A DNA stretch of 47,405 nt. It comes from Phycisphaeraceae bacterium (GTDB taxonomy: Bacteria > Planctomycetota > Phycisphaerae > Phycisphaerales > Phycisphaeraceae). Below the pieces are notes generated by a model. That model made no database searches and was not told where the DNA came from. It saw only the letters and a program-made list of their open reading frames with translations. The translations under genes and the position numbers were made by a program. The stretch lies in contig JAFIFY010000006.1 in NCBI GenBank assembly GCA_020831765.1, positions 1-47,405 on the forward strand, given 5' to 3'. Position 1 is the stretch's first letter; each line of letters opens with the position of its first letter. Of this stretch, positions 43,191 through 47,301 are shown piece after piece.

Positions 43191-43904
43191 ATGATCGGCG
43201 AGGTGGTGACCATCGATGGCCCGGCCGGCAGTGGCAAGAGCACGGTGGCCCGACGTCTTGCGGCGCGGCTGGGCTGGGCATTTCTCGATACCGGCGCGAT
43301 GTACCGGGGGCTGACCGCGTGGGCACTGGATCGCGGCATCGCACCGGCCGACTCGCCCGACCAGGTGGCCGCCATCGCCGAGCGCCTGACCATATCCTTC
43401 GACTGGACCGATGATCCGCCCCGGCTTCGGATCAACGAGCGGGACATGATGGATCGACTTCGAGCCCCCGATGTCGCGGCGTCGGTCAGTGATGTGGCCT
43501 CGATCGCCTCGGTCCGCCGCATCCTCGTCGGTCTTCAACGAGCGATCGCCTCAGATCGACCCCGCCTGGTCTCTGAAGGAAGAGACCAGGGAAGCGTGGT
43601 CTTTCCCGATGCCCTGGTCAAGTTCTTTCTCGACGCAGCGCCCGAGGTTCGGGCAGCGCGCCGCGCGGCGGAGCTGCGGGCGGCTGGCCAACAGTTCGAC
43701 GATGCCCAGATTCTCGATCAGATTCTCCGCCGCGATGAACGCGACCGGAACCGGTCCGATGGGCCGCTGATCTGTCCCGCTGATGCCGTGGTCGTGGAGA
43801 CCGGCGGGCTGACCCTCGATCAGGTCACCGCTCGCCTTGAAGAGGAAACGCGCAAGCGCCTGGGCTCATCGCTGACCGGCGACGCTTTGAGGGCCGACTC
43901 GTGA
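43191..43904 (+). CDS. cmk: Cytidylate kinase
   Basis: 237 aa. Phosphorylates CMP and dCMP. Walker A GPAGSGKST at 10-18, then FLDTGAMYRGLT (NMP site), and the family marks RAPDVAASVSDVASIASVR, SEGRDQGSVVFPDA and FFLDAAPEVRAARRAAE. Length suits the family (about 225). It has no ribosome binding site; see the promoter entry. The last bases overlap the PlsC start by 4 bp (GTGA), so the two are coupled, a frequent gene order in bacteria. Confidence 0.95.
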   Translation: MIGEVVTIDGPAGSGKSTVARRLAARLGWAFLDTGAMYRGLTAWALDRGIAPADSPDQVAAIAERLTISFDWTDDPPRLRINERDMMDRLRAPDVAASVSDVASIASVRRILVGLQRAIASDRPRLVSEGRDQGSVVFPDALVKFFLDAAPEVRAARRAAELRAAGQQFDDAQILDQILRRDERDRNRSDGPLICPADAVVVETGGLTLDQVTARLEEETRKRLGSSLTGDALRADS

Positions 43905-44737
43905 CCCCGCCGCCCTCATCAACGTCGGACGGGACGTTGGCCGCCGAGGATTCACCCATGGCCGGCCATCGCAATAAGGCAACGGAAAGATCCTCCGCCG
44001 GGGGTTCGAAGCGCCGGAGCTTCCCCGGGCAGGACAGCTTCCTCGTCTGGCTCTGGTATCGAGTCATGTTCTACGCGCTGCATGGGATTGTGGCCATCCC
44101 CTTCCTGCTGATCTATCGCTTCCGGGCATGGGGCCAGGAAGGTGTGCCGCGCGATGAACCGGTGCTGTTCATCGGGAACCATCAGTCCTATCTGGACCCG
44201 GTGGCCTTCGGCTTCGGGATGCACTTCCGTGGTTTTTCCGCCATGGCTCGGGCCACCCTCTGGCAAAACCGCATCGTGGGGTTGCTGCTGGATGTGCTGC
44301 GAACCGTGCCGGTCAACCTCGGTCGGGCCGACCGGGGTGCGATCCAGCGCTGTATCGATGCGTTGGCCGCGGGTCGCACGGTTCTGCTCTACCCTGAGGG
44401 TACGCGATCGGACACGGAGGAAACCGGCCCGTTCAAACCGGGAATCCTGCTGATGGCTCGGAAGGTCAAGCCGTGGATCGTCCCGGTTGCGGTTCACGGT
44501 ACATACCGGGTCTGGTCGCGTCACCGCGGCCGTCCGAAGCTCTCAGGCCGTATCGGCATGCTCTACGGTCGCCCCGTTCCGGCCCAATTCCTACTGAGCA
44601 TGCCCGCCGCCGAGGCCTCGAACTGGATCCGCCAGGAGGTCGAGCGGCTGAGGCGGGAATTGATCGATCGTCTCGACGGAAATCCGCCGAAGCGAAATCA
44701 GCAGCCGAATTCGAACTGTAAACCTATTCTGAAATAA
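43901..44737 (+). CDS. plsC: 1-acyl-sn-glycerol-3-phosphate acyltransferase (PlsC type)
   Basis: 278 aa. Adds the second acyl chain to lysophosphatidate at the inner membrane. The acyltransferase motif NHQSYLD (H-x4-D) with PLSC neighbours GFGMHFRGFSAMAR is clear; block III is YPEGTRSDTEETGPFKPG, and VPVAVHGTYRV follows. One hydrophobic segment (about 55-75, MFYALHGIVAIPFLLIYRF) precedes the active site. The start is GTG at 43901 inside the cmk stop; an internal ATG at 43961 is possible. The first 45 residues are a charged, low-complexity extension. Confidence 0.93.
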   Translation: MTPPPSSTSDGTLAAEDSPMAGHRNKATERSSAGGSKRRSFPGQDSFLVWLWYRVMFYALHGIVAIPFLLIYRFRAWGQEGVPRDEPVLFIGNHQSYLDPVAFGFGMHFRGFSAMARATLWQNRIVGLLLDVLRTVPVNLGRADRGAIQRCIDALAAGRTVLLYPEGTRSDTEETGPFKPGILLMARKVKPWIVPVAVHGTYRVWSRHRGRPKLSGRIGMLYGRPVPAQFLLSMPAAEASNWIRQEVERLRRELIDRLDGNPPKRNQQPNSNCKPILK

Positions 44738-44824
44738 CGTTAATATGCTCTAGGGCCTGGCGTGGATGGACCATGGCCCGGGCTGGCCGGCTGCGGCACC
44801 TTCCCTGGAAGTGGCGTCGGAACA

Positions 44825-44854
44825 TTGCCACGACCGACCTTAACCGGCTAAACT
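44825..44854 (+). promoter_or_regulatory. Promoter candidate for greA
   Basis: TTGCCA (44825-44830, five of six to TTGACA), an 18-nt spacer and TAAACT (44849-44854). It would start a leader of about 180 nt before the greA ATG. Confidence 0.45.
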
Positions 44855-44926
44855 GACGACCAAGCCTGGCAACGACTGAGCAATTCCCGTCCCGAGGCTG
44901 GGTGTTCGGCGACAGACCATGCGTTT

Positions 44927-44960
44927 GCCGCGCACCTGCAAAACATCGGGTCGGCTTTTT
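44927..44960 (+). terminator. Terminator-like stem in the greA leader
   Basis: GCCG (44927-44930) pairs with CGGC (44952-44955) and ACC (44934-44936) with GGT (44949-44951), with a 3-nt bulge. It is followed by TTTTTATTA. It would end transcripts early, before greA. The stem is short. Confidence 0.4.
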
Positions 44961-44964
44961 ATTA

Positions 44965-45003
44965 CCCCGGCACACGAACGATGCCGGGGGGCATCAAACC
45001 CCC
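44965..45003 (+). promoter_or_regulatory. Alternative hairpins in the greA leader
   Basis: Hairpin A: CCCCGGCA (44965-44972) with TGCCGGGG (44982-44989), perfect 8 bp. Hairpin B: GGGGG (44987-44991) with CCCCC (44999-45003). Both use G44987-44989, so they exclude each other. This is a switch-like arrangement 38 nt or more upstream of the greA ATG. Confidence 0.5.
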
Positions 45004-45040
45004 AAAGACTTACTGAACGTCGCCTTGGAGAATCGGCATC

Positions 45041-45505
45041 ATGGAATTCGTCACGCAGGAAGAGAAAAAGCAGGTTGAGGACAAGCTGGAGCAACTCAAG
45101 GCCAAGCGTCCCGTGATCACCCAGCGGATCGCCGAGGCCCGTGCGATGGGCGACCTCAAGGAAAATGCCGAGTATCACGCCGCTCGCGATGAGCAGGGTC
45201 TGAACGAGGCGGAAATTCGTCGGCTCGAAGAGCGGATCAAGAAGCTCAAGGTCGCCGATCGACAGGAAATCCCCGAAGACATGGTTTTTGTTGGCTCGGT
45301 GGTCAAACTCAAGGATTTGGAAGACCGTTCAGAAGATTTGTACCGACTTGTGGGCGAAGCGAGCGGCAATTTCGATGCCGATGAGATCGAGGTGACCAGC
45401 TCCAGCCCGATGGGCGAGGCTCTGCTCAAGGCCCGGGTCGGGGACGTGGTCCGCGTCGACCTGCCGCGCGGTACCCGGCGGTATGAAGTGCTCGAGCTCC
45501 TGTAA
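45041..45505 (+). CDS. greA: Transcription elongation factor GreA
   Basis: 154 aa, normal length. Rescues stalled RNA polymerase by stimulating transcript cleavage. The N-terminal coiled coil (1-75) carries ARAMGDLKENAEYHAARDEQ, the tip with the acidic pair that reaches the polymerase active site (D and E in GDLKENAEY). The C-terminal FKBP-like domain contains VGSVVKLKD, SPMGEALLKARVGDVV and the terminal YEVLELL. The start is ATG at 45041 with GGAG 10 nt upstream. A long structured leader precedes it. Confidence 0.97.
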   Translation: MEFVTQEEKKQVEDKLEQLKAKRPVITQRIAEARAMGDLKENAEYHAARDEQGLNEAEIRRLEERIKKLKVADRQEIPEDMVFVGSVVKLKDLEDRSEDLYRLVGEASGNFDADEIEVTSSSPMGEALLKARVGDVVRVDLPRGTRRYEVLELL

Positions 45506-45606
45506 ATGGCCGGTTTTCGGGAACTTTTCGCCCCCTCTGGCCGTTAACATTCTAAAGAGCCCCTTGGTATTGGGGCGGCGCTGTGCAAGCCTTCAGGAGT
45601 CGAACC

Positions 45607-47301
45607 ATGACTTTGTCACCTAGCCTCCACTGGCCGGGATTCGTGGTCGCCGTCGCGGCGATGACGTTTACCGGAAACGTCCATGGGCAGCACGCTCTGG
45701 ACGCCAATCTGCAAGTGGGCAGCGGCGGGATCAATCAGCCTCGCGACTATCCGGACTTCGCGGCCCGAAATCAGATCATCTATGGCAACGTTTCGGGGCT
45801 GGGCTATTTTCGTGACACGATCGGCTCGGGGGCGCCAGGTGACTTTCGCGATCAGCTCGGCTCCGATGACCTTTTCCGGTTCAGAGCTTCGACGCAGAGC
45901 CCGATGGTGGGCGGTGTGGGCACAGGTCGGCTGCCGGGGCTGACCCCGCAGCCGGTGCAGCGCGGTTTTTCCGCCCCGATTTCCCATGGACCTGGTGCCC
46001 ACCGCTATGACCAGATTGGCAGCGGCTGGCGTGGGACCAATGGGTTGTCCGGTCAGACTTTCGACCCGCGTCGCGCTGTGGGCGAGCAGCACTCATCCCT
46101 GATCGGCGTCAACACGATCGGACAGGTCCAAACGACCGACGGGCAATTCAGTCCGGTCACCGCGCAGCCCATGATCGGCATCGGCATACGGAACTGGCAG
46201 ACCCCCCGAACGCAGGAAGAAGTAGAGGAAATCGAGCCCGAGATCGCGGCACAACCCTCGCCGATGCTGCCTGGAATGATGCCGGGCGCGATCGATGCCA
46301 CGCGGCGTGATGTGTCCATGAGGCTGGGCGCTCAGCTTGGCGGTGCGCACCATCGCGACTGGCGGATTCAGGCAAGAACCGGAGAGACGATCGACGAGCA
46401 GGTCGAGCGCATCCGGGCTTCGGTATTGGCGATTCAAGGTTCGCGGGAGGCCAGGCCGGGCGACGATGTCTACATGGACATGCTCGTGGCGCTGCGGCAG
46501 CGTGAGGAAGTACTTTCCGGGCGCACGGCGGACCGACGAATCCCGCAGGACAGCCTCGTACGCGTCGAACAGCCCGAGGATGAAGCCCGGGCGCAACCCG
46601 ACACCGCGACAAGGCCGGCGCTCCGGGAGCCCACCGATGAGGAGCTGAGCCGCGCCGAGCAGGCACGGATCGAAGCCACCCGGCGCGCCCTGGGCCTTGC
46701 CACGCCGAGGACCGATGAGGCCGAGCGGGTCGATGAAGCTGAGGAGGATGCCACCGAACGGCGACTGCCAGAGGCCATGGCCCGGTTGCTGGCCACCCTC
46801 GATCACGACCTTGCGCCGCTCGGAACGCTGGCCGGACGACGGGATGATCCCACCACACGCTTGATGCGCCAGGCCGAATCCCTGTTGGCCGAGGGTCGGT
46901 ACTTCGATGCCGAACGGGCCTTCGGAGGAATCCTGGCGGTGCAGGAGGACCGTCCCCTGGCACGGGTGGGGCTTGTTCACAGCCAGATCGGCGCTGGATT
47001 ACTGCAGACCGCCGGACTGAATCTGCGTCGCCTGATCGCTGATCATCCCGAGTTGATCGCAACCCGCTATGAGTTGCGGCTGCTACCGACCGAAGCTCGC
47101 CTGGACTGGGCTGAACGCCGGCTTCGGGACATGGCCGAGCGTGAACACGGCGAGCACACCGGCCTGGTGCTGGCTTACATCGGGTTCCAGACAAGGTCTG
47201 AACGACTGGTTCGACTCGGGATGGACGTTTTTGAAACCGCCAGCCCCACCGACCCGCTCATCCCGCTGCTGCGTCGAGTCTGGCTTGCCGATCGCGACTG
47301 A
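45607..47301 (+). CDS. Secreted protein of unknown function with Gly-rich N-terminal and TPR-like C-terminal region
   Basis: 564 aa, not recognised. A signal peptide (LHWPGFVVAVAAMTFTGNVHG, cleavage near 29) precedes a Gly-, Gln- and Arg-rich region (about 30-200: IIYGNVSGLGYFRDTIGSGAPGDFRDQLGSDDLFRF), a charged linker (about 200-400) and a TPR-like end (MRQAESLLAEGRYFDAERAFGGILAVQ; LVHSQIGAGLLQTAGLNLRRLI). ATG at 45607 is chosen because AGGAG lies 7 nt upstream; a GTG 8 codons earlier is unsupported. It follows greA by 101 bp. The protein may sit in the periplasm or on the surface. Confidence 0.7.
   Translation: MTLSPSLHWPGFVVAVAAMTFTGNVHGQHALDANLQVGSGGINQPRDYPDFAARNQIIYGNVSGLGYFRDTIGSGAPGDFRDQLGSDDLFRFRASTQSPMVGGVGTGRLPGLTPQPVQRGFSAPISHGPGAHRYDQIGSGWRGTNGLSGQTFDPRRAVGEQHSSLIGVNTIGQVQTTDGQFSPVTAQPMIGIGIRNWQTPRTQEEVEEIEPEIAAQPSPMLPGMMPGAIDATRRDVSMRLGAQLGGAHHRDWRIQARTGETIDEQVERIRASVLAIQGSREARPGDDVYMDMLVALRQREEVLSGRTADRRIPQDSLVRVEQPEDEARAQPDTATRPALREPTDEELSRAEQARIEATRRALGLATPRTDEAERVDEAEEDATERRLPEAMARLLATLDHDLAPLGTLAGRRDDPTTRLMRQAESLLAEGRYFDAERAFGGILAVQEDRPLARVGLVHSQIGAGLLQTAGLNLRRLIADHPELIATRYELRLLPTEARLDWAERRLRDMAEREHGEHTGLVLAYIGFQTRSERLVRLGMDVFETASPTDPLIPLLRRVWLADRD

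Follow-up and report, generated by a model that had tools for sequence, protein, structure and literature searches.

A probable promoter and a long leader of greA with a weak, putative early terminator in a Phycisphaeraceae bacterium

The stretch of DNA analysed here, called the window in the following, comprises 47,405 nt of a Phycisphaeraceae bacterium (assembly GCA_020831765.1, contig JAFIFY010000006.1). It contains greA (45041–45505, Pfam PF03449 and PF01272), which lies on the forward strand, as do the gene before it and the leader features described below. The 5' neighbour of greA is a gene for a PlsC-like acyltransferase (43901–44737, PF01553) on the same strand, the stop codon of which is situated 303 nt before greA. 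A match to GreA is present in 310 of the 321 genomes of the order Phycisphaerales. The window represents the only genome of its genus in our sample, and the nearest genus comprises two genomes, G001 and G033, with GreA identities to the window of 78% and 77%. No relatives of the cmk or plsC gene of the window were found beside greA in 100 other Phycisphaerales loci, as far as these loci extend. The gene 3' of greA (45607–47301) has no Pfam match; a relative of it follows greA in the same orientation in 28 of the 100 other loci of the order, in four of them at a distance of several kb. The same genome also contains a second, distant GreA-like frame (G000:C170:32806-33126, 28% identity over query residues 45–153).

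The initial annotation had proposed a promoter about 180 nt upstream of the greA start codon. Such a site was indeed found: a two-box search identified TTGCCA (44825–44830) and TAAACT (44849–44854), separated by 18 nt, with 9 of 12 consensus bases and with 186 nt between the end of the candidate and the ATG of greA. In a scan of 43500–46500 for sites with 9 of 12 consensus bases it was the sole site found, the average in shuffles being 0.5. With the E. coli promoter matrix the score of the candidate was reached by 2 of 100 shuffles. With this matrix just 18 of 49 leaders, that of the window counted in, rank among the top 10 when set against 100 shuffles, and promoters are therefore hard to call in these genomes. 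A de novo motif search returned GC-rich patterns only; the promoter sites used below were taken from a seeded two-box search. When the boxes were re-estimated on 48 relatives from the family of the window, including the nearest genus, TTGCCA-18-TAAACT was the top-scoring site between plsC and greA and its score was reached by 38 of 1000 shuffles. The best sites in the nearest genus are TTGCCC-18-TAGACT, 186 nt from the greA ATG (G001), and TTGCCC-18-TACACT, 158 nt from the ATG (G033), and the genes upstream of greA differ from that of the window. Because the same design recurs at 186 and 158 nt behind other genes, 44825–44854 is probably the own promoter of greA.

The predicted promoter position would place the start of the transcript at about 44861 and would thus give a greA 5' leader of about 180 nt (44861–45040). 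In the family, a median of 86 nt separates the start codon from the predicted -10 box, so that the leaders of the window and of the nearest genus count as long. The leader is present as a single copy in the genome, which rules out a repeat element. Its predicted folding is no better than that of shuffled sequences (z = -0.47 for 44825–45041 and -0.56 for the 180-nt leader), and the same is true for the leaders of G001 (z = -0.14) and G033 (z = -0.50). The three leaders could not be aligned beyond chance, their three pairwise scores being reached by 101, 184, and 142 of 300 shuffles, respectively. Conservation of the paired arms among relatives, on which the initial annotation had made its proposal depend, was not found in the nearest genus: no arm of the leader hairpins of the window is conserved in its two genomes. 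Rfam yielded no family at gathering score in the window and none up to E 10 in 44700–45100.

Within the leader, a terminator-like stem-loop (44927–44955, -9.4 kcal/mol) is followed by the T-run TTTTTATTA (44956–44964). It starts 189 nt past the upstream stop codon and ends 85 nt before the ATG of greA. Both elements are present where the initial annotation had described them; the stem, however, is weak. Terminators were scored with the d of d'Aubenton-Carafa (energies from ViennaRNA), for which the usual cut-off is 0. The best hairpin ahead of the T-run, the one at 44927–44955, has d = -7.6 and is thus below the cut-off, whereas the GraL terminator of E. coli reaches d = 8.5 with the same scorer. 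Of 1000 dinucleotide-shuffled leaders, 8 equalled or bettered -7.6 and 1 exceeded 0. The window has 37 gene starts, that of greA among them; those with a spacer of less than 30 nt were scored as being without terminator, and greA is the only one with d > -10 within 200 nt upstream. A simple terminator scan returned 2 sites per 3 kb, compared with 2.7 in shuffles, and no further terminator-like site in the gap between plsC and greA. The 3' arm ahead of the T-run reads GGGTCGG (44948–44954), as in GraL of E. coli K-12 (L293); this likeness may be coincidence, since GGTCG followed by a T-run occurs in 0 of 54 greA loci outside the phylum.

A further predicted hairpin (44900–44937, -17.5 kcal/mol in a fold of 44900–44955) captures the 5' arm of the terminator-like stem and would compete with it. 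The mean pair probability of the stem is 0.97 when it is folded alone, 0.31 on average with shuffled upstream sequences, and about 0.01 with the native upstream sequence, so that the stem makes up about 1% of the predicted ensemble. By its overlap the hairpin looks like an antiterminator; in the folding model its effect does not go beyond chance, and a designed antiterminator was rejected, because suppression of the stem was as strong as with the native sequence for 113 of 500 shuffled upstream stretches.

Behind the T-run two more hairpins can be formed, and these had been put forward as mutually exclusive. Hairpin A (44965–44989, -15.6 kcal/mol) has arms of 8 bp (44965–44972/44982–44989) and a 9-nt loop and is not followed by a T-run; hairpin B (44987–45003, -8.3 kcal/mol) has arms of 5 bp (44987–44991/44999–45003). 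They have G44987–44989 in common, as had been noted. Hairpin B can be combined with a 7-bp pairing of 44980–44986 with 45034–45040, which adjoins the ATG, and the ensembles of the A state and of this B plus long-range state are less than 1 kcal/mol apart. At least the same ambiguity between the two states was seen in 94 of 300 shuffles, which puts the exclusivity at chance level, and the pair was dropped as evidence for a switch. A perfect stem of at least 8 bp was found in 27 of 1000 leader shuffles. The hairpins past the T-run are most likely incidental. The sequence GGCATCA occurs twice here (44990–44996 and 45035–45041), and the last letter of the second copy is the A of the greA start codon. 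GATGCC at 44980–44985 is complementary to GGCATC and can pair with the one or the other copy.

Relatives of the window were then scored in the same way. In the nearest genus, G001 has no comparable terminator after the promoter (d = -52.8); G033 has a terminator-like hairpin after the promoter with d = 4.5, or -1.9 when the hairpin must follow the predicted transcript start. For the order, 100 further loci, mostly one per genus, were used and terminators were scored between each gene and its upstream neighbour. Genes in these loci were called by a hexamer-trained caller, their starts being predictions, and the control genes were the neighbours of greA within 20 kb, not a genome-wide set. With the window left out, d > -10 within 200 nt was found for 18/100 greA genes vs 57/1195 other genes; when a promoter-like site was required upstream (window included), the counts were 17/87 vs 12/519. 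In the family of the window, again without the window itself, greA reached d > -10 in 6 of 34 cases and the other genes in 24 of 374 (p = 0.029), and the difference at d > 0 was not significant (4/34 vs 20/374, p = 0.13). Hairpins with d > 0 within 65 nt of the start were found at 12/100 greA genes and at 18/1194 other genes (window included, one locus unscorable). For co-directional neighbours with at least 50 nt between the genes these numbers were 12/76 vs 17/477, and for divergent neighbours 0/12 vs 1/301; the reverse strand of the same regions gave 0/100 vs 9/1194.

Leader terminators are thus over-represented at greA in the order of the window. Part of the excess may consist of terminators of the upstream gene, because none of the 12 greA genes with a divergent neighbour in the order has one. 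Hairpins with d > -15 that begin 5–35 nt after the upstream stop codon were present in 13 other loci. The length of the T-run does not separate the greA terminators of the order from the others. The occurrence at greA is patchy: five genera with several members each (g9, g10, g22, g6, and g31) have no terminator between promoter and greA, and in genus g15 one of two genomes has a leader terminator.

Two genera of the order have shared greA leaders of their own. In g34 the 145 nt before greA are highly conserved in six of seven genomes (L284–L289) and contain a CCCCGCG/CGCGGGG stem, then GATCGTC(T/A)TTCGGGC, and then a second hairpin-like stretch; the leader of the seventh genome (L290) differs. 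In g20 three of five genomes (L258, L254, and L262) share a CCACGCC..GCGTGG hairpin behind a GTGCTACAAT box.

Outside the order, 64 planctomycete loci were compiled from a first set of 14, which includes one Scalindua locus, the 30 loci matching the GreA of L043 best, and 20 less similar ones. L294 and L343 are one genome present twice, and removal of the duplicate left 63 loci. In this sample, which is biased to L043, one of the loci at which the hairpin described below was first noticed, d > -10 was found for 33/63 greA genes vs 20/273 other genes (34/64 vs 20/275 with the duplicate included), and within 70 nt of the start for 18/63 vs 5/273. When near-identical leaders were dropped as well, 28 of 55 greA genes had d > -10, 14 of 55 within 70 nt. 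At d > -10 the first set of 14 loci gave 9/14 vs 0/29 and the 30 best L043 matches gave 21/30 vs 12/50. The 19 less similar planctomycetes showed a weak excess (3/19 vs 8/185, p = 0.07) and no greA terminator within 70 nt of the start; the strong signal therefore belongs to Pirellulales-type genomes and is not established phylum-wide. Outside the order a terminator was also found at 3 of 11 greA genes with a divergent neighbour vs 4 of 82 other genes. Outside the phylum, d > -10 was reached at 9/54 greA loci, a figure without control genes.

About 30 nt before greA, the Pirellulales-type genomes have a covarying hairpin with the arms GCGACC/GGTCGC, followed by a long T-run (L043:2912-2963, L044:2914-2962, L045:2908-2965, L046:369-404, L070:2927-2962, L083:2850-2899, L303:1444-1476, and L315:1995-2030, among others). 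From 13 leaders picked by eye for this hairpin (L043–L046, L067, L070, L083, L295, L302, L303, L307, L315, and L322) the model R1 was built; L297 and L305 were left out, and also L304 and L310 as near-copies. The alignment (12 distinct rows) was trimmed to the own hairpin of each sequence, a cut favouring the structure, and in it 5 of 9 pairs change on both sides, which 8 of 500 shuffles reach. Of its cells 87.0% pair, a share that drops to 31–43% with a slid partner and is reached by 3 of 500 shuffles; the count of pair types does not stand out (201 of 500 shuffles). A search with R1 found L304 and L310 and, in the other 49 sources, nothing below E 0.2. In the 100 Phycisphaerales loci R1 matched five sites with E values of at most 1 (lowest E 0.0054), all of them away from the greA leader. 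The window has no match to R1 up to E 10 and hence does not belong to the Pirellulales-type sequence family. Rfam had no match at gathering scores on seven loci with the Pirellulales-type hairpin.

A feature that the window has in common with these leaders is GGTCG followed by a T-run. This pattern was found at 3/100 greA genes vs 5/1195 other genes in the Phycisphaerales without the window, and at 12/63 vs 0/273 in the rest of the phylum, where all 12 cases come from the first set or the L043-match set and none from the less similar set. The pattern was picked with the window and the Pirellulales-type leaders already in view and is therefore a lead and not a test.

In Proteobacteria and Firmicutes, greA genes preceded by premature terminators have already been described. 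Naville and Gautheret (2010, PMC2965389) reported leaders of the greA/rnk type with such terminators in Proteobacteria, bacilli, and Clostridia; their main text nowhere contains the word stem planctomycet. A literature search, which mostly did not extend to subscription journals, gave no paper on planctomycete greA leaders recognised by title or abstract among the matches listed. In E. coli about one third of the transcripts pass the terminator of the greA leader, the GraL RNAs form an array of 37–59 nt from two promoters and vary in amount with GreA, and GreA lowers its own expression via the leader plus an unidentified extra factor (PMC6829880).

With GraL, the greA leader of Enterobacteria (RF01769), the window shares a promoter, a terminator-like hairpin, and a T-run within the leader as well as the GGGTCGG of the 3' arm. 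An own promoter upstream of the terminator, as in GraL, is predicted at 44825–44854, at a site common to the nearest genus. Transcripts of the window, in contrast, would stop near 100 nt and not at 37–59 nt, there is one promoter candidate instead of the two promoters of GraL, and d is -7.6 compared with 8.5. The RF01769 covariance model had no match in 44700–45100 up to E 10, whereas E. coli K-12, used as control, matched with 127.5 bits. The placement described in PMC2965389 is found in the window: the stem has the same orientation as greA, lies less than 300 nt from the start, and, with 85 nt to the ATG and 189 nt from the upstream stop codon, is nearer to greA than to the gene before it. 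An overlapping antiterminator-like hairpin is present in the window, too. Compared with the greA/rnk leaders, the stem of the window is weaker, and a conserved leader, as in that type, is not seen with the nearest genus (two genomes), where the sequences cannot be aligned. The Pirellulales-type hairpin occurs in the same phylum and before the same gene, but differs from the window by its GCGACC/GGTCGC arms, its long T-run, and its distance of about 30 nt from the start codon. If functional, the leader of the window would work like a known kind while being a member neither of RF01769 nor of the Pirellulales-type hairpin. The initial annotation had drawn a parallel to GraL. As an analogy this is reasonable and gains support from the excess in the order (18/100 vs 57/1195); the mutually exclusive hairpins do not stand as evidence for it, nor does conservation of the arms.

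GreA makes paused polymerase cleave backtracked RNA. We consider it possible, with somewhat less than an even chance, that 44861–45040 is a greA leader transcribed from its own promoter and carrying a leaky premature terminator, the balance of which is shifted by GreA. Transcription would start at the sigma-70-type promoter 44825–44854; at the leaky terminator 44927–44955 with its U5AUUA a fraction of the transcripts would stop at about 100 nt and the rest would read into greA; and the level of GreA would, in the manner of other greA leaders, shift the proportion of stopped to elongated transcripts. The promoter, with its design and position common to the nearest genus, the weak stem with its T-run, and the excess at greA in the order can be read from the sequences; termination at 44927–44964, its extent, and feedback by GreA are what we infer from them. 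An early terminator is supported by the stem, which beats 992 of 1000 shuffles and is the sole such site at 37 gene starts of the window, by the enrichment at greA in the order, and by the covarying hairpin of the Pirellulales-type leaders. It is weakened by a stem that falls short of the cut-off and accounts for about 1% of the ensemble, by a leader that cannot be aligned, by G001 and several genera of the family being without terminator, and by the lack of an Rfam greA or R1 match. The same points bear on an ordinary, unregulated long greA leader, in which the promoter is real and the stem, the T-run, and the hairpins are incidental in a fast-changing, GC-rich sequence. This explanation is about as probable as the leaky terminator, or slightly more so, and likewise stays below an even chance. 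It agrees with the missing fold signal (z = -0.56), the unconserved arms, the small share of the stem in the ensemble, the chance-level behaviour of the competing hairpin and of the A/B pair, and the several family genera without any terminator after the promoter; it is opposed by a stem score that just 8 of 1000 shuffles reach, by the uniqueness of the site among the 37 gene starts, and by the enrichment in the order.

The stem could also serve the upstream cmk-plsC transcription unit as a leaky terminator, its place inside the greA leader being fortuitous. The upstream gene is on the same strand, the simple scan detected no other terminator-like site in the gap, 13 other loci have hairpins shortly after the upstream stop (d > -15, 5–35 nt), and divergent greA genes of the order lack terminators (0/12). 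Nevertheless, the hairpin of the window begins 189 nt after the upstream stop codon, which is far for an operon end, a promoter candidate is located upstream of the stem, and outside the order some divergent greA genes do have terminators (3/11 vs 4/82 other genes); we therefore regard this origin as improbable. Least probable of these explanations is a translational switch, in which hairpin A frees the start region and hairpin B together with 44980–44986/45034–45040 closes it. The two states are less than 1 kcal/mol apart and the long-range pairing covers 45034–45040 beside the ATG, but 94 of 300 shuffles are as ambiguous and the leader cannot be aligned with the nearest genus; moreover, we know of no ligand or protein site for the greA leader here.

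The leaky greA leader terminator can be extended to a broader idea, which we think rather unlikely in its full form: in Planctomycetota a terminator in the greA leader may read GreA activity via backtracking in the U-tract, separately from the enterobacterial GraL. It would be strong, with covariation, in the Pirellulales-type genomes and lost or rapidly rebuilt elsewhere, and the window would hold a weak version overlapped by an antiterminator hairpin. Separate would mean here that the feedback loop was independently arrived at or kept.

Taken by itself, the window likely contains a greA promoter and a long leader with a weak, putative early terminator, and what is gained from it alone is small. 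The Pirellulales-type greA leaders, which lie outside the window, are the stronger lead. Even in E. coli, an unidentified extra factor is invoked to explain how GreA adjusts its own level (PMC6829880). A second phylum with recurrent terminators in the greA leader would give independent material on the self-control of GreA. Should leaders with nothing in common but a hairpin and a U-tract all prove responsive to GreA, termination itself would be the signal and not a special sequence.
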